Positions 5,990 to 21,248 of a stretch of 64,000 bases of DNA are shown in pieces. Made by a program: the position numbers and the translations under genes. Source of the stretch: Agromyces aureus (GTDB taxonomy: Bacteria > Actinomycetota > Actinomycetes > Actinomycetales > Microbacteriaceae); NCBI RefSeq assembly GCF_001660485.1, contig NZ_CP013979.1, positions 3,906,001-3,970,000 on the forward strand, given 5' to 3'. The notes under the pieces were generated by a model that was not told where the DNA came from, did no database searches, and saw only the letters and a program-made list of their open reading frames with translations. Numbering within the stretch: the first letter of the stretch is position 1; every line of letters begins with the position of its first letter.

Positions 5990-7297
5990 ATGGCGAGCAC
6001 GCGGGCCGCGTTCCACGAGACGGCCACCCTGATCCCGGTCGCGCAGCACCTCGAGCGGGTGCTGGCCGAGGTCCGAGCCGACGCCGGCGTGCGGGTCGAC
6101 CGGGTCGAGTCCGTGCGACTCGCGGATGCCGCGGGGCGGGTGCTCGCGACCTCCGTCGCGGCCGTGGTCCCCTCGCCGCCCTTCGACAACTCGGCCATGG
6201 ACGGCTTCGCCGTGCGGTGGGCGGATGCCGCGTCCGCGACGCCCGAGGCTCCGGTCGCGCTGCGCGTGGTCGCCGACCACGCGGCCGGTTCGGCGGATGC
6301 GCACCACGCGCGGCCGCTCGGCCCCGGCGAGGCCGCGCGCATCATGACCGGAGCGCCGGTGCCCGCCGGCGCCGACACCGTGGTGCCGGTCGAGCGCACC
6401 GACGGCGGCCAGCCGACGAGCGCGACTCCCGTCGTGCAGGTGTTCAGCATGCCCGATCGCGGACGGCACATCCGGCGTGCGGGTGAAGACCTGCGAGTCG
6501 GCGACCTGCTCCTCGAGGCGGGAAGGCTCCTCGGCCCGCGCCAGGTGGCGGCCGCGGCCACCGCCGGCCACGGCACGCTCGAGGTCGTGCGCAGGCCCCG
6601 CGTCTCGGTCGTCGCGACGGGCAGCGAGCTCACCGAACCCGGCGAGGCGCTGCATCCCGGCCGCATCCCCGACTCGAACTCGCTGCTGCTCGCCTCGCTC
6701 GTGCGCGAGACCGGATGCGAGGTGGTCGAGGTCGTGCGCATGCCCGACGACGAGTCGCTGCTGCTCGCCTGGCTCGACGAACGCGAGCCTGCCGACGCCG
6801 TCGTGTTCACCGGGGGTGTGAGCGTCGGCGCCTACGACGTCGTGCGACGTGTGCTCGCGGACCTCGGCACGGTCGACTTCGTGCGGGTGGCCATGCAGCC
6901 CGGATCCCCGCAGGCCTTCGGCCGCCTCGCCGACGGCACGCCCGTGTTCGGCCTGCCCGGCAACCCCGTCGCGGTCGCCGTCTCGTTCGAGGTGTTCGTG
7001 CGCCCCGCGCTGCTCGCACTGCAGGGTCGGAGCGACGTTCAGCGGCGCCGGCTGCGCGCGACCGTCGAGACCGGCTGGGACTCGCCGGCCGGGCGACTGC
7101 AGGTGATGCCCGTCGCGTTCGTCGAGCCGGGCGAGGGCGCCGGCGTGGACGGCGACGCCGTGCGGCCCGCGACGCGCGGCGGCACGGGCTCGCACCTCTC
7201 CGGGGGCCTCGCCGCGGCATCCGGATTCGCGATCGTGCCCGAGCATGTCTCGCGCGTCGAGGCGGGCGACGTCGTCGAGGTCCTGGTGACCCCGTGA
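5990..7297 (+). CDS. moeA: Molybdopterin molybdotransferase, copy 1
   Basis: Inserts molybdate into adenylylated molybdopterin, the last common step of molybdenum cofactor synthesis. At 435 residues it is slightly longer than usual because of an N-terminal extension. Family signatures are PPFDNSAMDGFAVR, the GPGEAARIMTGAPVP stretch, ATGSEL, FTGGVSVGAYD and FGLPGNPVA. The ATG at 5990 is the first in frame and sits 6 nt after a TACCGT box. The stop overlaps a possible GTG start of mobA (GTGA), so moeA, mobA and the DUF6457 gene form an operon. A second, distinct moeA lies at 16981-18213, which suggests specialised roles or redundancy. Confidence 0.95.
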   Translation: MASTRAAFHETATLIPVAQHLERVLAEVRADAGVRVDRVESVRLADAAGRVLATSVAAVVPSPPFDNSAMDGFAVRWADAASATPEAPVALRVVADHAAGSADAHHARPLGPGEAARIMTGAPVPAGADTVVPVERTDGGQPTSATPVVQVFSMPDRGRHIRRAGEDLRVGDLLLEAGRLLGPRQVAAAATAGHGTLEVVRRPRVSVVATGSELTEPGEALHPGRIPDSNSLLLASLVRETGCEVVEVVRMPDDESLLLAWLDEREPADAVVFTGGVSVGAYDVVRRVLADLGTVDFVRVAMQPGSPQAFGRLADGTPVFGLPGNPVAVAVSFEVFVRPALLALQGRSDVQRRRLRATVETGWDSPAGRLQVMPVAFVEPGEGAGVDGDAVRPATRGGTGSHLSGGLAAASGFAIVPEHVSRVEAGDVVEVLVTP

Positions 7298-7329
7298 TCG
7301 ACCACGGGGCCGGGCGCGACGATCGGGCG

Positions 7330-8028
7330 ATGACGGATGCCGCGACGCGCCCCCTCGACGCCGTGCTCCTCGCCGGCGGGCGGGCGACCAGGCTCGACGG
7401 CGCGAGCAAGCCAGAGCAGACCGTCGGCGAGCGCACGCTCCTCGACCTCGCGATCGACGCGGCTCGTCGCGCGGGCGCCCGGAGCATCGTCGTGGTCGGC
7501 CCCTCGTCGCTGCACGCCCCCGGATGCCTCGTCGTGCGCGAGGATCCCCCCTTCGGCGGTCCCGTCGCCGCGATCGCCGCCGGACTCGCGGTGCTCGCCG
7601 CCCCCCGCCGGTCGAGGAGCGAAGCGTCTCGAGACCAGCGGACCCCGCACGACCCCGACGCCGACGCCGACGTGCTCGTGCTCGCCTGCGACCTCCCGCA
7701 GGCCACCGCCGCGGTCGAGCGCCTGCTCGACGGACGCGGCCAGCACGACACCGCCGACGGTGTCTGCCTCGTCGACGCCGACGGCCGCACCCAGTGGCTC
7801 ACGGCGATCTACGCCCGGGCCGCCCTCGACCGGGCCTTCGCCGTGCTCGACCGCGGCCCCGACGGAGCCGCCATGCGCCATCTGTTCGACGGGCTCGACC
7901 GCACCGAGATCGCCGACGACGGCACCGCCGAAGACGTCGACACGTGGGCGGACCTCGACCGCGCTCGTGAGCGCGCCGACATCCGCTCGTCCGAATCCCT
8001 TCGAACCGACCCGAGGAGCACCCCATGA
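7330..8028 (+). CDS. mobA: Molybdenum cofactor guanylyltransferase
   Basis: Adds GMP to molybdopterin to make the guanine-dinucleotide cofactor used by DMSO-reductase-type enzymes such as the FdhF-like protein at 24979. The nucleotidyltransferase motif LLAGGRATRLDGASKPE is at the N-terminus; the length is 232 residues. ATG 7330 is chosen, but GTG 7294, overlapping the moeA stop, is in frame and would add 12 residues. A 12-residue stretch RRSRSEASRDQR (7606-7640) is not expected in this family and is encoded by a copy of the 35-bp dispersed repeat, so the repeat has become part of the protein. Its reading frame is preserved. Confidence 0.9.
   Translation: MTDAATRPLDAVLLAGGRATRLDGASKPEQTVGERTLLDLAIDAARRAGARSIVVVGPSSLHAPGCLVVREDPPFGGPVAAIAAGLAVLAAPRRSRSEASRDQRTPHDPDADADVLVLACDLPQATAAVERLLDGRGQHDTADGVCLVDADGRTQWLTAIYARAALDRAFAVLDRGPDGAAMRHLFDGLDRTEIADDGTAEDVDTWADLDRARERADIRSSESLRTDPRSTP
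7606..7640. repeat. 35-bp dispersed hairpin repeat, copy inside mobA
   Basis: Full copy of the repeat that begins CGCCGGTCGAGGAGCG and ends TCTCGAGACCAGCG. The ends are partly complementary (GGTC/GACC with inner GAG/CTC), giving a REP-like hairpin. Here it lies within coding sequence. Confidence 0.85.
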
Positions 8029-8309
8029 CGCCCGACGCGCCCGACCCGAACCCGAACCGCAACCCCAACCCGCCCGCCCCCGCAGACCTCGACGCGTGGG
8101 TGGCCGAGATCGCCGCCGAACTCGGACTCGACCCGGCGGATGTGCCCGTCGGCGACATCCTCGACCTCACGCGCAGGGTCGCCCACGGCGTGGCCCGCCC
8201 CGCGGGCCCCGTGACGGCGTTCATGGTCGGCCTCGCAGTCGGTCGCGGCACGGCGACCGGCACCGCGAGCGAGGTCGCCGATCGCATCGGAACGCGCGCC
8301 AACGGCTGA
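8025..8309 (+). CDS. DUF6457 domain protein
   Basis: A 94-residue acidic helical protein with a Pro/Asn-rich N-terminus, then DLDAWVAEIAAELGL and a core LDLTRRVAHGVARPAGP. I recognise it as the DUF6457 type, often found next to or fused to MobA in actinobacteria; its function is not established. Its ATG overlaps the mobA stop (ATGA) and has GAGGAG at 8013-8018, so it is co-translated with mobA. A role in guanylyltransfer or cofactor handover is inferred from context only. Confidence 0.8.
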   Translation: MTPDAPDPNPNRNPNPPAPADLDAWVAEIAAELGLDPADVPVGDILDLTRRVAHGVARPAGPVTAFMVGLAVGRGTATGTASEVADRIGTRANG

Positions 8310-8328
8310 GCCCGACCCCCGACCCCCG

Positions 8329-8365
8329 CGACCGAGCGCAGGGGCCGAGCCCTCGCGTTCGGTCG
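8329..8365. terminator. Imperfect hairpin between convergent genes
   Basis: CGACCGA and TCGGTCG arms with a mismatched inner stem lie between the end of the DUF6457 gene and the end of the narK remnant. No U-run is present; a terminator role is plausible from position. Confidence 0.35.
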
Positions 8366-8368
8366 GGC

Positions 8369-8850
8369 TCAGACCTTCGCGCCCGGTCGCGCGTCCCTCA
8401 GCATGCCGGCCACGACCAGCGCGGCCGCACCGACGATCACGAGCAGCCAGAGGCCGAGCGCGTAGGAGTTCGTCTCGGCGTTGCAGGTCGCGCCCATGAC
8501 GAGCGGCGGGAAGTCGCCGCCGAGGCCGCCCGCCGCCGCCACGACGCCGGTGACCGCGCCGACCTTGTCCTTCGGGGTCGATGGGCCGATCCAGGCGAAC
8601 ACGGCGCCCATGCCGAGGCCCATCGCGGCCGCCATGAGGATGAACGTGACGCCCGTGAGGATGCCCTCGGGCGGTTGCTGCCCCACGATGTACGCGAGCG
8701 AGACGATGCCCGCGAGCGAGATCAGCGAGATGACCTTCGGCCCCACGCGGTCCGAGAAACGCGCCGCCGATCGGCCTGGTGACCACCGCGGCGACCGCGA
8801 ATAGCGCCGTGCGGGTGCCTGCACCCACGGGGTCGACGTCGTCGAGACCA
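8369..8850 (-). pseudogene. NarK-type nitrate/nitrite transporter, 3' remnant with frameshift
   Basis: The C-terminal part of a major-facilitator nitrate/nitrite transporter remains: transmembrane segments around LISLAGIVSLAYIVG, FILMAAAMGLGMGAVFAWIG, VTGVVAAAGGLGGDFPPLVMG and ALGLWLLVIVGAAALVVAGML. The upstream piece GTRTALFAVAAVVTRPIGG continues in another frame, so about one extra base sits near 8757-8765. Recognisable homology stops near 8850, so the N-terminal half is missing, and no start or ribosome-binding site exists. It is a decayed gene. Its position in a molybdenum cluster suggests that nitrate uptake and reduction once belonged here and were lost. Confidence 0.8.
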
Positions 8851-8972
8851 GCCCCGCACCCAGCACCCCGTCGCCTCCTCCACAGGGCGAGCTTTCGCCC
8901 GCCACCCTCAGCCGCGTTCGGCACGCGAGTCGCGTGCATGGCCGGCGCGGCAGTATGCACTCGAGAACACCC

Positions 8973-9002
8973 GGCACTCCGGCACTCCGGCACTCCGGCA
9001 CC
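8973..9002. repeat. 8-bp tandem repeat GGCACTCC
   Basis: Three exact copies of GGCACTCC (8973-8996) plus a partial fourth (GGCACC) lie just 5' of the gene at 9051. The stretch 8850-9050 otherwise holds no gene and looks like a deletion scar next to the narK remnant. Confidence 0.85.
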
Positions 9003-9050
9003 GTGTTCCAGAGCGAAACCCCCGCCTGCTCGAGAGGAGCCGACCCGGCG

Positions 9051-9506
9051 ATGAACGACCACTCCCTGAAAGCGGACGCGGAGACGGGCCGATTGGTAAC
9101 CGACCTCGCCTACCTGCTGGGCACGACCAAGAAGCGGGTCCTCTCCGAGGCGGTCGCCGCGTACGCGGCATCCCGAATGCCGGCCTCTCACGAACGACGG
9201 CCGTTCCTGGATCTGCCCGTGCGTCAGCGGCTCGCGCTGCGGCGCGACGAACTGCTTCGGGCGTACGAAGGTCAGGGGGCGTCCGACGTTCGCCTCATCG
9301 GACCGTTCGCGGCAGGCGACGACGTCGACCTCGTCGAGATCCTCGCCGAGACCGACATCATGATGGGCGGCGACGCGGTCGACGTGCTCGCCGCGATCGC
9401 GCGGGAGATCCTGGCGACACGCGTCGAGGTCACCTCGGCGACTGCGGTCGCCTTCTCCGACCCCGAGCTGCTGAAGCGGCTGCGCGGCGAGTCGACCCCG
9501 CTCTGA
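9051..9506 (+). CDS. Hypothetical protein with degenerate nucleotidyltransferase-like domain
   Basis: A 151-residue protein; ATG 9051 has GAGAGGAG 11 nt upstream. The first ~45 residues (RLVTDLAYLLGTTKKRVLSEAVAAYA) resemble a ribbon-helix-helix or HTH DNA-binding segment. The remainder (RLALRRDELLRAYEGQGASDVRLIGPFAAGDD followed by helix-strand elements) resembles the minimal nucleotidyltransferase fold of MntA-type antitoxins. The catalytic GSxxRGE and paired Asp residues are not recognisable (GPFAAGDD instead). No HEPN partner is adjacent. It could be an orphan antitoxin or a repurposed regulator; the function is unknown and the fold call is tentative. Confidence 0.6.
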   Translation: MNDHSLKADAETGRLVTDLAYLLGTTKKRVLSEAVAAYAASRMPASHERRPFLDLPVRQRLALRRDELLRAYEGQGASDVRLIGPFAAGDDVDLVEILAETDIMMGGDAVDVLAAIAREILATRVEVTSATAVAFSDPELLKRLRGESTPL

Positions 9507-9527
9507 CGCCCCGCGCGGTTCGCCACG

Positions 9528-9562
9528 CGCCGGTCGAGGAGCGAAGCGTCTCGGGACCAGCG
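9528..9562. repeat. 35-bp dispersed hairpin repeat
   Basis: Full-length copy with one substitution (TCTCGGGACC instead of TCTCGAGACC). It lies between the convergent ends of the 9051 gene and moaE, the typical intergenic location for this element. Confidence 0.85.
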
Positions 9563-9581
9563 CCCCCGCTCGAACCTCAGC

Positions 9582-10031
9582 TCAGAGGTTCACCCACTCC
9601 GTCGTACCGCCGTCGAGGTGCTGGCGCTTCCAGATGGGCGTGTGTTCCTTGATGCGGTCGACGAGCAGCGCGCACGCGGCGAACGCCTGGGCACGATGGG
9701 GTGCGGCGACGGATGCCACGAGCGCGACGTCGCCGATGACGAGCGAGCCGATGCGGTGGGCCGCGGCGATCCGCAACCCGGTCTCACGCGCCACCTGCTG
9801 GAGCGTCTCGCGCAGGAAGTCCTCCGCGGCCGGGTGCGCCTCGTAGTCGAGCGCGGTGACCGACTCGCCGTGATCGTGGTCGCGGATCACCCCCTCGAAC
9901 GTGACGAGCGCACCGTTCTCGGCCGAGCGCACGAAGGCCTCGATCGCGTCGCGGTCGAGCACGTCGGTCGTGACGCGGGCGAGCACGTCGGGCGCGGTCG
10001 CCTCCGGCTCGGACTGCTCGTGCTCAGACAT
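9582..10031 (-). CDS. moaE: Molybdopterin synthase catalytic subunit
   Basis: Transfers sulfur from MoaD thiocarboxylate to precursor Z to make molybdopterin. It is 149 residues with typical features: GALVTFEGVIRDHDHGESV, the ALDYEAHPAAE segment, HRIGSLVIGDVAL, and the C-terminal KEHTPIWKRQ with the active-site lysines. The start could be ATG 10031 or the preceding GTG 10034; both overlap the stop of the fused moaC gene by a few bases, so the genes are coupled. No moaD is present in the window, so the small subunit must be encoded elsewhere. Confidence 0.93.
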   Translation of the reverse strand: MSEHEQSEPEATAPDVLARVTTDVLDRDAIEAFVRSAENGALVTFEGVIRDHDHGESVTALDYEAHPAAEDFLRETLQQVARETGLRIAAAHRIGSLVIGDVALVASVAAPHRAQAFAACALLVDRIKEHTPIWKRQHLDGGTTEWVNL

Positions 10032-11166
10032 CACGTGCTCCTTCGGCGTGGACGGTGGCCGTGGGCGGCACGATCGAGTGCGGCGCCGGGTGCGGCGTGG
10101 GGTGCGGCGTCGGGTGTGGAACCGGCCGAGGTGCGGCCTCGGAGCGCGGCGCGTGGTCGCCGCCGGCGACCTGGTCGACGAGGTGCGGCAGCAGGTCGTC
10201 GAGCACGGCGAGCCCGTCGGCGACGCCGCCCCGCGATCCGGGGAGGTTCACGACGACCGTTCGCCCGGCGATGCCCGCTCGTGCCCGGCTGAGCGCGGCC
10301 GTCGGGGTCGCGGCTCGGCCCGCGGCGCGGATCGCTTCGGCGACCCCCGGCAACTCCTGGTCGAGCACGGCGAGCGTGGCCTCGGGCGTGCGGTCGCCGG
10401 GGTTCACGCCCGTGCCTCCGGTCGTGATGAGCACGGTGGGCGAGCCGGCGACGGAGCCGCGCACGGCGTCGGCGATGTCGGCGTCGGCGACCACGACGAG
10501 TTCGGGCGCGTCGAATCCACGCGCGCGGAGCCAATCCACGATCGCGGGACCGGTCGTGTCGGGCGCCTCCCCCGCGGCAGCCCGGGTCGACGCGACGATC
10601 ACGATCGCCCGGCGGCCGCCCGCGGCATCCGCCCGACCGGTCTCGGAGTGCACCGACCCGTCGGGAACGGCATCGAGCGCAGCGGTCTCGCCCGCGGCAT
10701 CCGCTCGCCAGATGCCGCGCTTGCCGCCGCGCTTCTCGACGAGCCTGATGCCGCCGGTCTGCGCGGCCGGGTCGACCGCCTTGACCATGTCGTGCAGCGT
10801 CAGTGCGGCGACCGCGACGGCGGTGAGCGCCTCCATCTCGATGCCGGTGCGCGCGGTGGTCGACACGGTCGCGCGGATGGTCACGGCGGCGGCCTCGAAC
10901 CCGAAGTCGATCGACACGGCGTCGAGCGGCACGATGTGTGCGAGCGGGATCAGCTCGCTCGTGCGCTTGGCAGCCTGGATGCCGGAGATGCGCGCGGTGG
11001 GCAGCACGTCTGCCTTCTTCAGCGCATCGCCCTGCACGAGCGCGACCACCTCGGCGGTCGTGTCGAGGCGGCCCTCGGCGATCGCGACCCGACGTGTGAC
11101 GGGCTTGCCGCCGACGTCGACCATGCGCGCTCGGCCGTCGTCGTCGAGATGCGTGAGCGGGTTCAT
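10024..11166 (-). CDS. moaCB: Fused MoaC / MogA-MoaB molybdenum cofactor protein
   Basis: A 380-residue bifunctional protein. Residues ~1-158 are MoaC (cyclic pyranopterin monophosphate synthase accessory) with KADVLPTARISGIQAAK, LIPLAHIVPLD and GIEMEALTAV. Residues ~185-335 are a MogA/MoaB molybdopterin adenylyltransferase with VLITTGGTGVNPGDRTPEA and NLPGSRGG. The two domains are joined by an Asp/Ala-rich linker. The C-terminal ~45 residues are a His/Pro tail (PHPTPHPTPHPAPHS) from a short DNA repeat at 10078-10125, possibly metal-binding. A TAGCGT hexamer (11173-11178) ends 6 nt before the ATG, so the message may be leaderless. It overlaps moaE. Confidence 0.93.
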   Translation of the reverse strand: MNPLTHLDDDGRARMVDVGGKPVTRRVAIAEGRLDTTAEVVALVQGDALKKADVLPTARISGIQAAKRTSELIPLAHIVPLDAVSIDFGFEAAAVTIRATVSTTARTGIEMEALTAVAVAALTLHDMVKAVDPAAQTGGIRLVEKRGGKRGIWRADAAGETAALDAVPDGSVHSETGRADAAGGRRAIVIVASTRAAAGEAPDTTGPAIVDWLRARGFDAPELVVVADADIADAVRGSVAGSPTVLITTGGTGVNPGDRTPEATLAVLDQELPGVAEAIRAAGRAATPTAALSRARAGIAGRTVVVNLPGSRGGVADGLAVLDDLLPHLVDQVAGGDHAPRSEAAPRPVPHPTPHPTPHPAPHSIVPPTATVHAEGARDV

Positions 11167-11281
11167 ACCCTCACGCTAGCGACCATCGGCCGCGTCGTTA
11201 ACCCGGCGACGGGTCGCGATCGCCGTTGCGGCGTTCGCGACCCGTCGGTCGAGGGTGCGGATCAGCGAGGGCTTCTGCCCG

Positions 11282-13234
11282 TCAGGCCGCCACGGGCGCC
11301 GCTCGCAGGAGCGCCCGCACCGAGGTCGTGCGCCGCCGCGCGACCACGAGCGTCGTGACGCCGAACGAGAGCACGGCCCAGACCGCGAGCCCGACGAAGG
11401 CCGCGCCAACGCCGGTGGTCGAGGTGAGGGCCGAGACCATGCCGTTGTACGCCGGGGCCGTGGGCAGCAGACCCGCGAGGTCGGCGAGCACGCCGGGCAC
11501 GGTCGAGACGATGCCGGTTGCGACGGTGAGCACGCCGATCAGGGCCGAGACCCAACGGCCCGCCCCGCCGAACGCGGCGATGAGGCCCTGGTTGACGGCG
11601 GCGAAGGCGACGCCCGCGGCGACGCACAGCGAGGCGAAGACGAGCCACTCGCCGACGTCGTACGACGCGGCGAGCTGCACGACACCGGCGACGAGCACGC
11701 CCTGCAGGGCACCGAGGGCCGCAGCCGGCGCGAACCCGCGCAACGCGAGCATGGCCGAAGGCGACCGCGAGGTGAGCGCGCGCCGCGAGACGGCCTGCAG
11801 CACCACGAAGGTCGCGAGTCCGCCGAACCAGAGCGCGAGCGTTGCGAGCAGCGGAATCGCGGATGCCCCGAACAGCGAGCTGCCCGCACCATCGGCCTTC
11901 ACGGGGTCGGCGACGACCGAGGCGAGGCTCTGCGCCTCGGCGTCGGTGTACGACGGCACGGCTTCGGACGCGGTGCGCAGGCCCGTGGCCAGTTCGCCCG
12001 TGCCGTCGGCGAGCGACTGCACGCCGGTTGCGAGCGTGCCGGCCCCGGTGGCGAGCTGATCGGCGCCCGAGCTCAGCTGCGTCGCGCCGTCGCCGAGTGC
12101 GCGTGCGCCGTCGGCCGACTGCGTCGTGCCGGCGGCGAGCTGCGTGAGACCGCCCGCGAGCTCGTCGGTCTTGGCGGCGATCTCGGTGAGGCCGGCGCTG
12201 GTGCCGGAGGTCAGGGCGGCGATGCCCGAGGACGTCGGCGCGGCATAGCCGCTGGCCGTGCCCGCGCTCTTCGCGACGGCGCCCGCAGCGGACGCGGCCT
12301 TCGCGACGTCGTCGCAGTACGCGGTCGAGGCGCCGGACGTCGCGCACTGGGCCTGCAGCGCGCCGAGCGCCTTGGCCAGGTCGAGGCTTCCGGTCGCGGC
12401 GTCGGCCGCGTTCGAGGCCGAGAGTTGCGCGGCGCCGACGAGCTCCTGGTTGTTCACGCCGGCGGCGACCTGGCGGATTCCGCCGGCGAGCGCACTCGCG
12501 CCTGAAGCGGCGCCGGCCGTGCCGTCGGCGATCGTGTCGAGCCCGCTGCCGAGCTCGCCCGCCCCGGTCGCGATGCCGCTCGCCCCGGTCGCCAGCTGGG
12601 TCGCCCCATCGGGCAGGGCCGCTGCACCGTCGGCCGCGCTCTGCGCGCCGTCGGCGAGCTTCACGGCGCCGTCGGCGGCCGTGCCGAGCTGCGTACCCAG
12701 GTCGGTGAAGCCGACGAACACGTTCTCGAGGTACGTGGTCGACAGCTGTTCGCCGAGCACCGTGGTCGCGGTCTGCGCGACCTGCGCGGTGATGGCGTCG
12801 TCGACGACGAGGCTGTCTGGCGGGGTCGAGACCTTGATGGTCGCGCGCTCGGGCGTGCCGCCGGGGGCGGTCGAGGTCGCGGCCGCCGAGAAGTTCTCGG
12901 GGATCGTGATGACCGCGGCGTAGGTGCCGTCGGCGAGCCCGGCCTTCGCGTCTTCGGTGTTCGAGAGGGTCCAGGTCAGGTTGGCGTCGTCATCGCCGGT
13001 GCCCTCGACGAGGCCGGCCGTCAACTGGCGGCCGAGCGGCACGACCTGGTCGTCGATCGTGACCGGTTCGTCGTTGTTCACGATGGCTGCGTTGAGTTCG
13101 CCGAGCCGCTCGGTCGGGTTGTAGAGCGCGGCGACGAGGATGCCGCCGATCACGACGGGCAGCAGGAGCACGCCGATGATCGTGAGCCAGGTGACGGGGC
13201 GCTTCGAGCGCGCGCGTTCGATGGGGAGCGTCAT
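11282..13234 (-). CDS. YhgE/Pip-family membrane protein
   Basis: A 650-residue polytopic protein. One transmembrane helix (residues ~15-35, TWLTIIGVLLLPVVIGGILV) is followed by a large extracellular region ending in long ADGAxxLAxGAxxLxxG repeats (an amphipathic rod, residues ~175-420), then about five C-terminal transmembrane helices ending in VVARRRTTSV. This is the phage-infection-protein/YhgE layout; members resemble ABC-2-type permeases and sit beside export systems. The ATG overlaps the MMPL stop (ATGA), so the two are co-translated. Together with the TetR gene it looks like an inducible lipid or drug export module. The substrate is unknown. Confidence 0.9.
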   Translation of the reverse strand: MTLPIERARSKRPVTWLTIIGVLLLPVVIGGILVAALYNPTERLGELNAAIVNNDEPVTIDDQVVPLGRQLTAGLVEGTGDDDANLTWTLSNTEDAKAGLADGTYAAVITIPENFSAAATSTAPGGTPERATIKVSTPPDSLVVDDAITAQVAQTATTVLGEQLSTTYLENVFVGFTDLGTQLGTAADGAVKLADGAQSAADGAAALPDGATQLATGASGIATGAGELGSGLDTIADGTAGAASGASALAGGIRQVAAGVNNQELVGAAQLSASNAADAATGSLDLAKALGALQAQCATSGASTAYCDDVAKAASAAGAVAKSAGTASGYAAPTSSGIAALTSGTSAGLTEIAAKTDELAGGLTQLAAGTTQSADGARALGDGATQLSSGADQLATGAGTLATGVQSLADGTGELATGLRTASEAVPSYTDAEAQSLASVVADPVKADGAGSSLFGASAIPLLATLALWFGGLATFVVLQAVSRRALTSRSPSAMLALRGFAPAAALGALQGVLVAGVVQLAASYDVGEWLVFASLCVAAGVAFAAVNQGLIAAFGGAGRWVSALIGVLTVATGIVSTVPGVLADLAGLLPTAPAYNGMVSALTSTTGVGAAFVGLAVWAVLSFGVTTLVVARRRTTSVRALLRAAPVAA

Positions 13235-16143
13235 GCGTTCACCTCGGTGGTCGAGTGTGCGGGTGCCGTCGCGTTCGGGGCGACGAGTTCGATGAAGGGT
13301 GCGTCGGGGTGACCGGCCGCCGCGAGCAGCGGGAGGGCGTTCGCCGCGTCGCCGGTCGAGACCACGACGGTGACGGATGCCTCGAGCGAGGCGTCCCAGA
13401 GCACGGAGGCGAGCCGGTCGCGGGTCACCGGGTCGGTGATGCGGTCGACGCCGTCGATGACGACGATGCCGGTGCGGCCGCGGACGGCCCTGCGCAGCTC
13501 GGCCACCGGATCGTCGGCCTCGGCGAGCAGCGCGACGCCGACGTGGGCGCGCACCCAGGCCGAGCGCCCGGGCAGGAGGTGGCCGGCGACGCGCAGGCGC
13601 CCACCGGTCGAGTCGATGCGACCCGCGATCGTCAGCAGCATGGCGCGCGTGGCGATCTCGTCGGCGCCGGCGACGACGAGTGCGCCGCCCGGCTCGACCC
13701 GCAGGCTCACGCCCTCGAAGACGACGACGTCGCGCTCGACGAGCGAGAGGTCGGATGCCACGATGGCCGCCGTGGTCTCGGGTTCGGGCCAGTCGGCGAG
13801 CGCCCGCTCGCGTTCGACGGCCTCCCCCTCGATGTCGAAGTGCGGCAGCAGGCGGTCGAGCCACTTGGGCAGCCACCAGGCCTTGTCGCCGAGCAGGGCC
13901 ATGACGGCGGGCACGAGCGTCATGCGCACGATGAACGCGTCGATCGCGATGCCCACCGAGAGCCCGAGCGCGATGGGCTTGAGCGAGGAGTCGCCCTCTG
14001 GCACGAACGCGGCGAACACCGCGAACATGATGACGGCCGCGGCCGTGACGACGCGGGCCGAGGCGGTGAAGCCCGAGCGCACCGCGCCGAGGGCGATGTC
14101 GCGCGGCTGGCGGCTGGAGTGGCCGTCGAGCGCACGGCGCGCGTGCACGTAGTCCTCGCGCATGCGGCTGACGAGGAACACCTGGTAGTCCATCGCGAGT
14201 CCGAACAGCACGCCCATGGCGACGATCGGCATGAAGCTGATGATCGGCCCGACCTTGGTGACGTGCAGCAGGTCGGCGCCCCAGCCCCATTCGAAGACCG
14301 CGGCGACGACGCCGAAGGCGGCGACGACCGAGAGCAGGTAGCCGGCAGCCGCCGTGATCGGCACCCAGATCGACCGGAACACGATCGCGAGCAGGATCAG
14401 CGACAGCCCGACCACGAAGACCCCGAAGGGCACGAGCGCCTCGCCGAGGCGGTCGGAGATGTCGATCGCGACGGCCGTGAATCCGGTGACCTTGAGGTCG
14501 ATGCCGTACTCGTCGAGGAAGTGGTCGTGCAGCCCACGGAGCTCGCGCACCAGGTCGGCGGTGGCGGGGTCGTCGGGCGCGGTCGTGGGGATGACCTGCA
14601 CGATGCCGGTGTCGGCCGTCTCGTTGGGCACCGCGAGCGCAACGGTCTCGACACCCGGCAGCGTGGAGATCTCGTCGCCGAGGTCCTGCATGAGCCCGAG
14701 CGGGTCGGTCGAGGTGACGATCGTGCCGGTGAGCACGAGCGGCCCGTTGAAGCCGGGCCCGAAGTGCTCGGCGACGAGGTCGTACGAGACGCGGGCGGGG
14801 TCGTCCTTCGGCAGCATGCCGGCGTTCGGCAGGGCGAGCGCGAGGCTGGCGGCGGGGATCGCGATGATGCCGAGGCCCAGCACGACCGCGACGGTCGTGA
14901 CGACCGGATGCCGCGTCACGAGTCCGACCCAGCGCGTGGCGAATCCACGGCGTGCGGTCGCGCCGGTCGCGGCGTGCGCTTCCTGCGCCTGCGGCCCGGC
15001 GGGGGCAGCGGATGCCGCATCCGCACCGACGTGCGACGGGCGCCCGTCTGCGACATCCGCCCCCTGCTGCAGCGCACGCTGCTGCGCCGCACGCCGGCGT
15101 CCGCGCGGCTCGCGCCGCTTCCACCCGACGACGCGGCCCTTGACGAGCCCGAGGAACGCGGGCGTGAGGGTGATCGCCACGAGCACGGCGATGGCGACCG
15201 AGACGGCTGCGGCGATGCCCATGACCGTGAGGAACGGGATGTTCGCGAAGCCGAGGCCGATGAGCGCGATGAGCACCGTGATGCCCGCGAAGACGACGGC
15301 AGAACCGGCGGTGCCGGTCGCGCGCGCGGCGGACTCCTCTGGGTCTTCTCCGGCTCTCACCTGGTCTTGATGTCGCGCCATGATGAACAGCGCGTAGTCG
15401 ATGCCGACCGCGAGGCCGAGCATGAGCGCGAGCAGCGGGGTCGTCGACGAGATGGTCGCGAACGCCGTCGAGAGCATGATGAGCGAGAGCGAGAGGGCGA
15501 CGCCGATGACCGCGGAGGCGAGCGGCAGTCCGGCCATCCTGATCGATCGGAACGTGACGATGAGCACGAAGAGCGCGATGAGCAGGCCGACGCCCTCGGT
15601 GAGGGTGATGCCCGGCACCGAGAGCGCGAAGAGGTCGCCGCCGAGCACGACCTCCGTGCCCTCGGGCAGCGACGCGCCGAGCTCGTCGGTCATCTCGTGC
15701 AGCTTCGTCTTGGTCGACTCGGGAACGTCGGTCGCCTCGCCGTCGAACTGCAGGCGCACGAGCGCCGCGGTCTCGTCGTCGGAGATGAGCCCCGTGACCA
15801 TCTCGTTGTACGGGTCGGTCACGGCGAGCACGCCGTCGAGGCCCTCGATGTCGGTGATGGTCTGCTCGATGCCGGTCTTGAAGGCGTCGTCCTCGACGCT
15901 CGAGCCGTCGGGCGCGACCACGATGAACTGCGCGCTCGTGCCGCTGGCCTGCGGGAATGACCGGTTCAGCTGCTCGAGGCCGGCCTGCGCCTCGGTGCCG
16001 GGGATCGAGAAGCTGTTGCTCGTGCCCTTGCCGAAGAGGGCGAACGCGCCTCCCGCGATGACGAGGAGGAGCAGCCACGAGACGAGCACGCGCCACGGGT
16101 GGCGGTACGACCAGCGGCCGAGCGAGTAGAGCAGAGTGGACAA
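13231..16143 (-). CDS. MMPL-family transporter with degenerate ABC-ATPase-like C-terminal domain
   Basis: A 970-residue RND-superfamily MMPL transporter. Two repeats each have an extracytoplasmic loop and transmembrane helices, including the acidic TM4 pattern GLAVGIDYALFIMARHQDQ and its counterpart GLAMDYQVFLVSRMRED. Residues ~780-970 form an extra domain that looks like an ABC nucleotide-binding domain (VVFEGVSLRVEPGGALVVAG, GGRLRVAGHLLPG, IVVIDGVDRITDP). The Walker A lysine, signature LSGGQ and Walker B glutamate are lost, so it cannot hydrolyse ATP in the usual way. TTG 16143 is chosen: GGAGG lies 8 nt upstream, while longer frames run through the operator at 16178-16212. It forms an operon with the YhgE-like gene and diverges from a TetR gene. 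Lipid or drug export is inferred. Confidence 0.9.
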   Translation of the reverse strand: MSTLLYSLGRWSYRHPWRVLVSWLLLLVIAGGAFALFGKGTSNSFSIPGTEAQAGLEQLNRSFPQASGTSAQFIVVAPDGSSVEDDAFKTGIEQTITDIEGLDGVLAVTDPYNEMVTGLISDDETAALVRLQFDGEATDVPESTKTKLHEMTDELGASLPEGTEVVLGGDLFALSVPGITLTEGVGLLIALFVLIVTFRSIRMAGLPLASAVIGVALSLSLIMLSTAFATISSTTPLLALMLGLAVGIDYALFIMARHQDQVRAGEDPEESAARATGTAGSAVVFAGITVLIALIGLGFANIPFLTVMGIAAAVSVAIAVLVAITLTPAFLGLVKGRVVGWKRREPRGRRRAAQQRALQQGADVADGRPSHVGADAASAAPAGPQAQEAHAATGATARRGFATRWVGLVTRHPVVTTVAVVLGLGIIAIPAASLALALPNAGMLPKDDPARVSYDLVAEHFGPGFNGPLVLTGTIVTSTDPLGLMQDLGDEISTLPGVETVALAVPNETADTGIVQVIPTTAPDDPATADLVRELRGLHDHFLDEYGIDLKVTGFTAVAIDISDRLGEALVPFGVFVVGLSLILLAIVFRSIWVPITAAAGYLLSVVAAFGVVAAVFEWGWGADLLHVTKVGPIISFMPIVAMGVLFGLAMDYQVFLVSRMREDYVHARRALDGHSSRQPRDIALGAVRSGFTASARVVTAAAVIMFAVFAAFVPEGDSSLKPIALGLSVGIAIDAFIVRMTLVPAVMALLGDKAWWLPKWLDRLLPHFDIEGEAVERERALADWPEPETTAAIVASDLSLVERDVVVFEGVSLRVEPGGALVVAGADEIATRAMLLTIAGRIDSTGGRLRVAGHLLPGRSAWVRAHVGVALLAEADDPVAELRRAVRGRTGIVVIDGVDRITDPVTRDRLASVLWDASLEASVTVVVSTGDAANALPLLAAAGHPDAPFIELVAPNATAPAHSTTEVNA

Positions 16144-16177
16144 GGGCAGCGCCTCCGAGCCGGATGTCAGGACAGTT

Positions 16178-16212
16178 CGATACAGCGCTGTATCCGATAC
16201 GTAGTTGTATCG
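16178..16212. promoter_or_regulatory. Operator pair for the divergent TetR regulator
   Basis: A perfect 16-bp palindrome GATACAGCGCTGTATC (16179-16194) abuts a second inverted repeat CGATAC-N6-GTATCG (16195-16212). Both share GATAC/GTATC half-sites. They lie between the divergent MMPL and TetR genes, the expected place for a TetR autoregulatory operator controlling both. Confidence 0.75.
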
Positions 16213-16265
16213 TAGATCGGAGAGGGCCTGCAAACCTGTGGCCTTCATGTGAATACGGGGGTTGA

Positions 16266-16940
16266 ATGGCCATGGTCGAGTCCGCAGTGACCGCGCCGCG
16301 CAGTCGCGAGAACACACGGCGCAAGCTGCTCGACGCCGCCGCGCAGGTGTTCGCCGAGGTCGGGCTCGCCGCGGCATCCGTCGAGGCGGTCTGCGATCGC
16401 GCCGGGTTCACACGCGGGGCGTTCTACTCCAACTTCGATTCGAAGGACGAGCTGTTCCTCGAACTCGCCGGTCGCGTCACGCAGGGCCGCGTCGAAGCGG
16501 TCACCGCGCGCGTCGCCGAGCTCGAGTGCGACGGCGCGTTCGCGTCGAGCCAGACCGACGTCTTCGAGATCCTCGATCAGGTGCTGGATGTCTCGGCCGA
16601 CGACCGGCTCGGCGTGCTCCTCATGAGCGAGATCCGCATCCATGCGCTCCGCAGCCCCGAGATGGCGGCCGCGTATCTCGAGCAGGAGGCCGAGATGCAG
16701 CGCAGCGTCGCGCAGATCGTCGCCGACATCGGGCGAGCGAAGGGCATCACGTTCCGGGTGTCGGCGCTCGAGGCGGCCCGCGTCATGCTGCTCGTCTGGG
16801 AGGGCAGCGCCGTGCGAGCGGCCATCGCCGGCGAGAACGCCGACCGCATCCATCGGGCGACGAGCACGGAGCTCGCCCTCGTCGCGCAACTCGTCATCGA
16901 CGGACCGGCGACGACCTACGACGAAGACGAAGAGGAGTAG
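16266..16940 (+). CDS. TetR-family transcriptional regulator
   Basis: A 224-residue repressor. The N-terminal HTH spans residues ~15-62 (RRKLLDAAAQVFAEVGLAAASVEAVCDRAGFTRGAFYSNF), matching the TetR domain; the C-terminal ligand domain is helical. The tail is acidic (DEDEEE). The start may be ATG 16266 (4 nt after GGGGG) or ATG 16272 (10 nt). It diverges from the MMPL/YhgE operon with palindromic operators in between, so it probably represses that operon and itself and is released by a substrate of the exporter. The ligand cannot be inferred. Confidence 0.9.
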   Translation: MAMVESAVTAPRSRENTRRKLLDAAAQVFAEVGLAAASVEAVCDRAGFTRGAFYSNFDSKDELFLELAGRVTQGRVEAVTARVAELECDGAFASSQTDVFEILDQVLDVSADDRLGVLLMSEIRIHALRSPEMAAAYLEQEAEMQRSVAQIVADIGRAKGITFRVSALEAARVMLLVWEGSAVRAAIAGENADRIHRATSTELALVAQLVIDGPATTYDEDEEE

Positions 16941-16980
16941 GCAGCCCCCGCCCGCGACCCGCCCGCGCCGCGACCCGCGC

Positions 16981-18213
16981 TCAGAGCGCGATGGTCTCCA
17001 CCCTCTCGCCCGCGGCGAGTTCGGTCACGTCCTCGGGCACGACGATGAGCAGGTCGGATGCCGCGAGCGCCGCCACGAGGTGCGACCCGGGTCCGCCGAT
17101 GGCCACCGCCCGACCTTGCGCGTCTCGACGCCCGCGTCGGTACTGGCGTCGTCCGGCGATCGAGACGAGCGGCTCGGCGAGCGGAATGGACTCGACGGAT
17201 GCCGCGGGCAGGCCGGCGATCGCTCGCAGCGTCGGCGCGACGAACAGCTCGAACGAGAGCTGCGCGCTCACGGGATTTCCGGGGAACCCGATCACGGGCA
17301 TGCCGCGGTAGGCGGCCGCGGCCTGCGGGCCGCCGGGCTGCATCGCGACCGCACCGACCCAGGCTCCGAGCGGCTCGAGCAGTTCGCGCACGACCTCGTA
17401 GGCGCCCTGCGAGATGCCGCCGCTCGTGATCACGAGCTCGGCGCCGGCGTCGCGCGCCGCATCGAGCCGGAGGCGCAGCTGCTCGACCTCGTCGCGGACG
17501 CGGGCCTCGAACACCACGACCGCACCGGCGGCCCGCACGGCCGCGGCGAGCGCGACGCCGTTCGCATCGGGGATCTCGCCCGCGCCGAGTTCAGCGCCCG
17601 GCGCGACGAGCTCGCTGCCGGTGCTGACGACGGCGACGCGCACGCGCTCGCGCACGAGCAGTTCGGTGAGGCCGGATGCCGCGGCCGCCGCCAGGTGGCG
17701 GGAGCCGAGCTTCAGGCCCGGCGGCAGCACGTCGTCGCCTGCCGCGAGGTCGGATCCGGCCTCGCGCACGTACTCGCCGGCCGCCCGGGAGCGGAGGATG
17801 CGCACGGCGCCGGCCCCGCCGACATCCGCACCGCCGGACCCGTCGCCCGTCTCGGTGTCCTCGACCGGCACGACGGCGTCGGCTCCCTCCGGCACCGGCG
17901 CACCGGTCATGATGCGCACGGCGGTTCCGGGCGCGAGCGGCGCCGGCAGACCGGGGGCCGCGGCGACCTCGCCCACGACGGGCAGGGTCACCGGGGCATC
18001 CGTCGCGCCCGCGACATCCTCAGCCCGTACGGCGAAGCCGTCCATCTGCGCGTTGCGGAACGGCGGCAGGGCGATGGGGGACTCGACCGGCGACGCCGTG
18101 ATGCGGCCGAGCGCCTCGGCGACCGGCACGCGTTCGGTGGGCCTCGCACCCAGCCCCGAGAGCAGCGAGCGCACGAACGAGGCATGCTCCTCGACGCTCG
18201 GGCGCGCGCTCAT
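16981..18213 (-). CDS. moeA: Molybdopterin molybdotransferase, copy 2
   Basis: Second MoeA-family protein, 410 residues, with FRNAQMDGFAVRAEDV, GTAVRIMTGAPVPEGAD, VSTGSELV, ITSGGISQGAYEVV and IGFPGNPVSAQ. It differs clearly from the 5990-7297 copy across its length, so it is an old paralogue, not a recent duplicate. It diverges from the HTH-TOBE gene that leads modABC. Many actinobacteria carry two MoeA proteins; one may serve a subset of enzymes or a different metal form. No strong ribosome-binding site is seen before ATG 18213. A C-terminal ARRQYRRGRRDAQGRAV loop is unusually basic. Confidence 0.93.
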   Translation of the reverse strand: MSARPSVEEHASFVRSLLSGLGARPTERVPVAEALGRITASPVESPIALPPFRNAQMDGFAVRAEDVAGATDAPVTLPVVGEVAAAPGLPAPLAPGTAVRIMTGAPVPEGADAVVPVEDTETGDGSGGADVGGAGAVRILRSRAAGEYVREAGSDLAAGDDVLPPGLKLGSRHLAAAAASGLTELLVRERVRVAVVSTGSELVAPGAELGAGEIPDANGVALAAAVRAAGAVVVFEARVRDEVEQLRLRLDAARDAGAELVITSGGISQGAYEVVRELLEPLGAWVGAVAMQPGGPQAAAAYRGMPVIGFPGNPVSAQLSFELFVAPTLRAIAGLPAASVESIPLAEPLVSIAGRRQYRRGRRDAQGRAVAIGGPGSHLVAALAASDLLIVVPEDVTELAAGERVETIAL

Positions 18214-19687: not shown

Positions 19688-20505
19688 TGGCGCGGGCGGC
19701 AGCACGCAGCACCGGGCGCCTCGCCTGGCCGATCACCGCGATCGCCGTCGTGGCGCTCGCGGTGCTCGTGCTGCCGCTCGTCGCGCTCGTCGTGCGGGCG
19801 CCGTGGGCCGACCTCCCCGAACTCCTCGGCAGCAGCGCCGTGCTCGAAGCACTGGTGCTCTCGTTCACCACGGCGATCACCGCGACGGCGGTCTGCCTCG
19901 TGCTCGGCATCCCGCTCGCCGCGCTCATCGCCCACGCCGAGTCCTGGCCCACCCTGCCGCGACGGCTGCTGCGCGCGGCCGTCACGGTTCCGCTCGTGCT
20001 GCCGCCCGTCGTCGGCGGCATCGCCCTGCTCATGCTCCTCGGCCGCCGGGGGCTCATCGGTCAGTGGCTCGACGAGACCTTCGGCCTCACGATCCCGTTC
20101 ACGACGGGTGCGGTCGTCATCGCGCAGATCTTCGTGGCGCTGCCCTTCCTGGTGTTCGCGGTCGAGGGTGCGCTGCGATCCTCCGACCGGCGCACCGAGC
20201 TCGCGGCGGCCACGCTCGGCGCCTCGCGCTGGCAGGTGTTCCGCCACGTGACGCTGCCGCTCGTCGCACCGGGCGTCGCCGCGGGCGCCGTGCTCTGCTT
20301 CACTCGCGCGCTCGGCGAGTTCGGCGCGACCATCACCTTCGCGGGTTCTCTGCCCGGCACGACCCGCACGCTGCCGATCGCGAGCTACCTCGCCATGCAG
20401 ACCGACCCCGACGAGGCCGTCGCGCTCGCGCTGCTGCTGCTCGCGGTCTCGGTGATCGTGCTGCTCACCCTGCGCGACCGCTGGCTTCCGGGGTCAACGG
20501 CATGA
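19687..20505 (+). CDS. modB: Molybdate ABC transporter permease
   Basis: A 272-residue inner permease with about six transmembrane helices. The cytoplasmic coupling motif is ELAAATLGASRWQVFRHVTLPLVAPG (EAA loop), followed by GAVLCFTRALGEFGAT, a ModB signature. The GTG start at 19687 shares one base with the modA TAG stop (TAGTG); the frame upstream only overlaps modA. It is coupled to modC by ATGA. Confidence 0.95.
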   Translation: MARAAARSTGRLAWPITAIAVVALAVLVLPLVALVVRAPWADLPELLGSSAVLEALVLSFTTAITATAVCLVLGIPLAALIAHAESWPTLPRRLLRAAVTVPLVLPPVVGGIALLMLLGRRGLIGQWLDETFGLTIPFTTGAVVIAQIFVALPFLVFAVEGALRSSDRRTELAAATLGASRWQVFRHVTLPLVAPGVAAGAVLCFTRALGEFGATITFAGSLPGTTRTLPIASYLAMQTDPDEAVALALLLLAVSVIVLLTLRDRWLPGSTA

Positions 20506-21248
20506 GCCTCGAGCCACGGGCATCGGATGCCGCGGGCGGCCGCCCCGGCCTCCAGGTCGACCTCGCGTTGAGCTTCGGCGCGACGCGCATCGCGGCGGCG
20601 TTCGAGGTGCAGCCCGGATGCCCGCTCGCGATCATCGGGCCGAACGGCGCCGGCAAGTCGAGCGTGCTCGCCGCGATCGCCGGGCTCGTGCCGCTCGATG
20701 CCGGCGCGATCTCGATCGGCTCCCGGCGCGTCGACGCGCTGCCGCCCGAGCACCGACGAGTGGGCGTCGTGTTCCAGGACTACGTGCTCTTCCCGCACCT
20801 GAACGTGCGCGACAACGTCGCGTTCGCGGCCCGCATGCGCGGCTCGCGCGCCGCCGCCCGCGTGGCGGCGCAACCGTGGCTCGAGCGCTACGACCTCGTG
20901 TCGCTCGCCGACCGGCTGCCGTCGGAACTCTCGGGCGGCCAGCGCCAGCGCGCGGCGCTCGCCCGTGCGCTCGCGGCCGATCCCGACGTGCTGCTCCTCG
21001 ACGAGCCGATGTCCGCGCTCGACGTCGAGGTCCGCGCCGAGATGCGCACCGAGCTCGCCATCCACGTGCGCGACTTCGGTGGCGCGACCGTGCTCGTCAC
21101 GCACAGCCCTGCCGATGCCGCCCGGCTCGCGGACTCCGTGCTCGTGCTCGAGGCCGGCCGGGTGACCCAGCGCGGCACGCTCGACGAGCTTCGCGCCGAC
21201 CCGGCGACGCCGTACGTGCGGCGCCTGCTCGCGGCATCCGACGACTGA
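20502..21248 (+). CDS. modC: Molybdate ABC transporter ATP-binding protein
   Basis: A 248-residue ATPase driving molybdate import. Walker A GPNGAGKS spans residues 46-53, Q-loop FQDYVLFPHL ~91-100, signature LSGGQ 143-147, Walker B LLLDEP with E168, and H-loop H201. Canonical ModC carries a C-terminal TOBE domain; this one ends soon after the nucleotide-binding domain. The operon's TOBE domain is instead on the separate regulator at 18435. It is last in the operon and converges with the phosphatase gene 6 bp away. Confidence 0.93.
   Translation: MSLEPRASDAAGGRPGLQVDLALSFGATRIAAAFEVQPGCPLAIIGPNGAGKSSVLAAIAGLVPLDAGAISIGSRRVDALPPEHRRVGVVFQDYVLFPHLNVRDNVAFAARMRGSRAAARVAAQPWLERYDLVSLADRLPSELSGGQRQRAALARALAADPDVLLLDEPMSALDVEVRAEMRTELAIHVRDFGGATVLVTHSPADAARLADSVLVLEAGRVTQRGTLDELRADPATPYVRRLLAASDD

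Follow-up and report, generated by a model that had tools for sequence, protein, structure and literature searches.

The locus

The window analysed here is a stretch of 64,000 nucleotides from Agromyces aureus (assembly GCF_001660485.1, contig NZ_CP013979.1, positions 3,906,001 to 3,970,000). It includes a tetR-MMPL-yhgE block that is located within a molybdenum cofactor cluster (9582-18213). The features of this region, in window coordinates, are:

9582-10034, strand not given: MoaE (molybdenum cofactor cluster)
10024-11166, strand not given: MoaC fused to a molybdopterin-binding domain (molybdenum cofactor cluster)
11282..13234, minus strand: YhgE/Pip family protein of 650 residues (TIGR03061, PF12698, hydropathy)
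13231..13234, minus strand: ATGA overlap of the MMPL stop codon TGA and the yhgE start codon ATG (sequence)
13231..16143, minus strand: MMPL-family RND transporter of 970 residues with a C-terminal domain like an ABC nucleotide-binding domain (NBD) (PF03176, 6.8e-78)
16179..16194, no strand: perfect 16-base palindrome GATACAGCGCTGTATC, candidate operator between tetR and the MMPL gene (sequence)
16266..16940, plus strand: divergent TetR-family regulator (PF00440, 3.8e-16)
16981-18213, strand not given: MoeA (molybdenum cofactor cluster)
19803-21248, strand not given: ABC ATPase frame, beyond the molybdenum cofactor cluster

The MMPL protein passes the PF03176 cut-off (262.4 bits against 20.5). 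Its likely start is a TTG with GGAGG upstream, a position also given by P0001. The transmembrane part contains the Asp-Tyr pairs GIDY and AMDY, which we take to be the proton relay; these pairs are the one feature of the protein itself that points to a putative proton-driven exporter. The palindrome GATACAGCGCTGTATC is a possible TetR operator, and a second inverted repeat, CGATAC..GTATCG, adjoins it in the tetR-MMPL gap. A scan of 11100-16500 found no promoters or terminators. At 8369-9001 there is a partial MFS transporter (PF07690, 3.6e-7, below the cut-off), seemingly a gene remnant.

The hydropathy of the YhgE protein reveals one N-terminal hydrophobic segment, a large heptad-repeat part and several C-terminal hydrophobic segments. 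The YhgE/Pip family is presumably akin to EsaA. The N-terminal model TIGR03061 is matched above its cut-off (3.1e-35, 121.2 against 96.15), and the match to TIGR03929 is below the cut-off. The preliminary description had called this neighbour ABC-2 permease-like, a relation borne out by PF12698 (ABC2_membrane_3; 2.2e-13, 50.5 against 31.6). The window protein agrees with the YhgE/Pip family in its N-terminal model and in its homology to ABC-2, which is stated for the PIP family as well (PMC3924187); however, it differs from the family models in that the C-terminal model TIGR03062 stays below its cut-off (9.1e-15, 54.8 against 102.2) and in the NBD-like partner, fused or separate.

The tail of the MMPL protein resembles an ABC nucleotide-binding domain

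The elements of the tail discussed below are:

13276..13776, minus strand: NBD-like core without helical subdomain (sequence and predicted model)
13429..13470, minus strand: Walker B-like strand GIVVIDGVDRITDP, Asp retained and followed by G instead of the catalytic acid
13549..13602, minus strand: GRLRVAGHLLPGRSAWVR, the most strongly conserved part of the tail (310 tails)
13642..13668, minus strand: degenerate Walker A GADEIATRA, with T and R at the K and S/T positions (alignment)

It had been proposed that the last ~190 residues of the MMPL protein (13234..13806) read like an ABC ATPase. Pfam detects no ABC domain in this tail, which does not reach the PF00005 gathering score. When the tail is submitted alone, NCBIfam ABC models match it in two halves, all far under their cut-offs: PhnT (4.9e-5), UrtE (4.2e-4) and CcmA (5.5e-4) on the first half, and YbbA (1.7e-3) on the second. 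Nevertheless, a profile built from 23 tails matches solved ABC NBDs with E-values from 3.8e-11, and the predicted structure is a confident compact fold in which the fold search found the ABC NBD topology, in agreement with the proposal. Profile and predicted model together establish the tail as an ABC-type NBD without the ATPase site and without the helical subdomain. Neither outcome that would have contradicted the proposal, a fold search without ABC-like topology or homologues with an unrelated tail and no YhgE nearby, was observed.

Three other accounts of the resemblance were discarded. A chance similarity is excluded by the profile and fold results, and a window-only oddity or assembly artefact by the existence of hundreds of relatives; as to another P-loop family, all five stand-alone proteins with a match to ABC_tran score higher there than with AAA/STAND models.

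With ABC NBDs (PF00005; TM_1403, LolD, FtsE, MlaF) the tail shares the fold, the order of the elements and the Walker B strand with its Asp (IVVIDG). Unlike them, it is fused to an RND-type transporter and has lost the catalytic residues: the Walker A pattern GxxGxGK[ST], and with it the lysine, is absent, the sequence reading GADEIATR; the catalytic acid after Walker B is replaced by G and the switch, without its His, reads STGD; the LSGGQ signature and the helical subdomain are missing when the tail is aligned with 10 canonical NBDs from its own genome. The earlier remark that the tail has no Walker A lysine and no signature motif was therefore correct.

Conservation of the active site among related tails

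A search with the window tail, in which 8000 candidates were scored, returned 678 proteins at E<=0.001, and counts on named relatives rest on the 120 of these that were listed. A second search, with a Walker A-bearing query and again 8000 candidates, gave 103 proteins at E<=1e-6. Many of these carry both PF03176 and PF00005, a combination that is already in precomputed domain lists; fused P0126 passes the PF00005 cut-off. Among the matches listed, the named sources include Agromyces and Microbacterium for the window query, and Amycolatopsis, Bifidobacterium and Mycobacterium for the other.

Residue frequencies were obtained from 310 tails, i.e., 217 proteins (223 listed relatives minus 6 that fail an anchor pattern or length limit), 73 of 80 family loci (7 dropped likewise) and 20 genome-contig loci; this set counts the window twice and likely holds further duplicates. 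Lysine occupies the Walker A position in 89 of the 310 (0.29) and arginine in 61, and the full G-x4-GK-S/T pattern is found in 82. By source, these are 76 of 102 relatives of the Walker A-bearing query, 5 of 73 family loci and 1 of 20 genome-contig loci; none of the 115 proteins collected from the search with the window tail has it. On a 184-row tree the state of this lysine changes at least 9 times; as the lysine is found in canonical NBDs and in several of the stand-alone relatives, repeated loss is the natural reading. An acid (D/E) follows the Walker B Asp in 81 of the 89 tails with K, in 7 of the 61 with R and in 6 of the 159 with neither. Joint loss of the lysine and this acid, counted in independent pairs on the tree, goes in the expected direction but is not significant (7 pairs; 3.4 in the same direction and 0.1 in the opposite one; median p 0.25). 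No signature motif is present in the 310 tails, where three regular-expression matches fall in the strand after Walker A, or in 18 stand-alone homologues; His is at the switch position in 1 of the 310 and at the next position in 11.

The best conserved residues lie elsewhere. They are the GR after the first helix (0.97 and 0.96), the Walker B Asp (0.91) and the stretch GRLRVAGHLLPGRSAWVR, with the pattern G-x-L-x-V-x-G-x-x-L-P-x(5)-V-R (0.75-1.00 over 310 tails; G 1.00, L 0.80, V 0.97, G 0.96, L 0.91, P 0.98, V 0.75, R 0.85). This distribution, which leaves out Walker A, indicates that a surface and the fold are retained rather than an ATP site.

These data bear on two alternatives. One is that the NBD-like domain and YhgE form half of a working ABC exporter that hydrolyses ATP, the MMPL part riding along, and that the window copy died recently. 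The 82 complete Walker A motifs, the acid in 81 of the 89 lysine-bearing tails and the Walker A retained by the stand-alone proteins L263, L264, L265, L267 and L271 would agree with this; however, the lack of a signature in fused and stand-alone proteins alike, the near absence of the switch His and the count of 0 of 115 among the window's listed relatives make it unlikely. The second is that the tail is a sensor that binds nucleotide without hydrolysis and gates the MMPL protein, the window member having lost its ligand and become constitutive. Walker A is indeed retained in many proteins without the hydrolysis apparatus, and the changes of the lysine, at least 9, by which nucleotide binding looks dispensable, are in line with it; but the sensor leaves the adjacency of YhgE unexplained and the top-conserved residues are away from Walker A, so we regard it as improbable.

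Tailed MMPL genes are followed by yhgE

The 80 family loci, the window included, were picked because the match extended to the tail, from at least 82 such places in total. In all 80 a yhgE homologue lies next to the tailed MMPL gene on the same strand; a possible yhgE start at a 4-base overlap with the MMPL end exists in 66, and in the other 14 it lies between 1 base ahead of the stop and 13 bases beyond it. In a gene-order sample, yhgE is beside the MMPL gene in 24 of 25 tailed and in 0 of 3 tail-less loci, the tailed exception (L134) being a sequence that stops 88 bases past the MMPL gene. On genome contigs yhgE accompanies 18 of the 20 tailed MMPL genes and none of the 60 tail-less ones; both tailed exceptions (L155, L156) are cut by a contig end, and L129 and L145 have the same sequence. 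Behind the MMPL gene, 53 of the 60 tail-less loci have at least 1.5 kb, 4 have less, and 3 (L173, L174, L201) are cut by a contig end; none of these 60 proteins has more than 120 residues past the last matched residue. The window MMPL protein differs from those of the 63 tail-less loci (3 + 60), which have neither the C-terminal domain nor the yhgE neighbour, and a close gene link between tail and yhgE holds across the three samples. Fisher's test for 18/0 versus 0/60 gives p 4.7e-18, a value that ignores common descent; as the 37 tailed proteins of the MMPL-body tree described below stand on one side of one branch, the link may be one event kept many times.

In P0114 and P0044 one reading frame runs from MMPL through the tail into YhgE, which is either a natural fusion or a frameshift in the source data.

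NBD-like genes standing alone beside yhgE

Twenty yhgE loci away from tailed MMPL genes were read, one of them from the window's own genome. With the 310-tail profile, 17 of them show a match in a stand-alone frame adjacent to yhgE (E up to 4.7e-4), and L261 joins them with profile filters off, giving 18 of 20. In the 17 measured loci the NBD-like gene is directly before yhgE; it ends at most 93 bases from a candidate start of yhgE, and 13 of the pairs overlap by 4 bases. By this profile the yhgE genes of L266 and L270 stand without an NBD-like neighbour, a point against the coupling explanation given below; L266 has an MMPL-like frame. The pair from the window's genome (L255) is:

G000:C1:4031000-4049000, 6593-9793 (~4037.6-4040.8 kb of the contig), strand not given: second yhgE with a separate NBD-like gene whose Walker A is dead (EQRPT) (profile)

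Separate dead NBD-like genes of this kind before yhgE also occur in L260, L262 and L274. Six stand-alone proteins form one group on the NBD tree, five of them with a full Walker A, and PF00005 is above the cut-off in 5 of 8 stand-alone proteins scanned, L263 among them.

A locus with three separate genes for MMPL, ATPase and YhgE was not found among the 20, the search for canonical ATPases relying on a motif pattern alone; this pattern recognised one locus, twice (L273), with two signature-bearing ABC-type frames nearby plus its own NBD-like gene. The preliminary description had envisaged such triads, followed by a fusion that then lost catalysis. The separate NBD-like gene beside other yhgE genes does exist, the three-gene arrangement does not appear in these loci, and the catalytic residues are gone, but the order of events may have to be revised: none of the NBD-like relatives read has an ABC signature, whether it is fused or separate, so that the loss of classical ATP hydrolysis may have preceded the fusion. 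At the level of the sequence, what was lost later in the window's lineage is the nucleotide-binding Walker A. The survey of loci recovered both fused and separate domains, with a variable Walker A.

Probable history of the fusion

The alignment separates short tails without the helical subdomain, which make up clade A (the window's) and clade C (2 rows, Brachybacterium), from long tails with a degenerate helical subdomain, clades B and D. On an MMPL-body tree of 62 rows (37 tailed, 25 tail-less), obtained by a quick method with one long tail-less row and no inferred root, the tailed proteins are all set apart by one branch (support 98), and each clade is likewise set apart by a branch of its own. 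On the NBD tree, the stand-alone proteins make two groups, fused A makes one and fused B, C and D together make another, with supports of 80-88 at the splits. The MMPL-body tree fits one fusion event that involved a long NBD-like gene, after which clades A and C each lost the helical subdomain.

Co-variation and selection

Over 73 loci, tail distances correlate with those of YhgE (partial r 0.41) more than with those of their own MMPL body (0.21), and two subsets give 0.37 versus 0.21 and 0.44 versus 0.31, with permutations that ignore phylogeny. YhgE and the MMPL body are closer still (partial r 0.72), as expected from plain one-operon linkage; hence the co-variation of tail and YhgE is only suggestive. 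Against L117, the nearest relative with DNA compared, the tail has a dN/dS of 0.27 and the body one of 0.15; against four farther relatives, where saturation is possible, the values are 0.43-0.60 and 0.40-0.45, and the tail exceeds the body for L117 and three of these four.

A tail that mostly evolves faster than its body, changes its Walker A repeatedly and has its helical part deleted could be a functionless passenger in decay, retained through its in-frame fusion and translational coupling to yhgE. Nevertheless, the confident compact fold of the model, the near-invariant residues across 310 tails and a dN/dS of 0.27 against L117 render this very unlikely.

A probable coupling role for the tail

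The explanation that we favour, and consider probable as a whole, is that a non-catalytic tail couples the proton-driven MMPL protein to the ABC-2-like YhgE after a gene fusion. Beneath an ABC-2 permease one expects an NBD; YhgE being ABC-2-like, the product of the NBD-like gene that precedes yhgE suits this position. The starting point is a signature-less NBD-like family whose gene, if separate, directly precedes yhgE at the loci read. Such a gene would have been joined to the 3' end of the MMPL gene in the ancestor of a single MMPL clade, as suggested by the single supported MMPL-tree branch and the kept gene order. The tail would then lie under the membrane part of YhgE, in the place of the ABC subunit, holding both proteins in one complex; relatives whose Walker A is complete may in addition use it as a nucleotide-binding switch, whereas in the window's lineage it would be a purely structural module and the proton gradient, through the MMPL protein, would drive export.

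The MmpL/MMPL RND transporters (e.g. MmpL3) share PF03176 with the window protein, and the M. tuberculosis MmpLs are called proton-driven carriers (PMC8277102). Such carriers, an ABC-2-like YhgE and a neighbouring NBD-like gene are the grounds for viewing the tail as a non-catalytic coupling module. From the observed fold, family and gene link we infer a docking or regulatory role, in which the contact with YhgE and the energetics would be as outlined; kept with a partner membrane protein in many Actinobacteria, the tail probably serves to hook MMPL and YhgE together. A bolder proposal, in which we place limited credence, is that Actinomycetes have a hybrid transporter class in which a pseudo-NBD passes the power of a proton-driven RND/MMPL pump on to YhgE, an ABC-2-type permease; the ABC engine block would be kept as a coupling part, with ATP swapped for the proton gradient.

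In the literature searched, which includes only a minority of subscription papers and preprints, no description of the MMPL-NBD fusion, its link with YhgE or the loss of catalysis was found. By their energy source, RND and ABC transporters count as two distinct classes, and here a conserved fusion of both stands beside an ABC-2-like YhgE. The fusion hands the YhgE/Pip proteins a likely partner, so that their function becomes testable. Within the family, NBDs also grade naturally from those that bear Walker A to those that are fully dead, with or without the helical subdomain, a series useful for studying what a pseudo-NBD is for. In P0180, P0188-P0190, P0192 and P0209 the Walker A loop is ~3 residues shorter (e.g. 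HGAGKTALL), a naturally shrinking P-loop.
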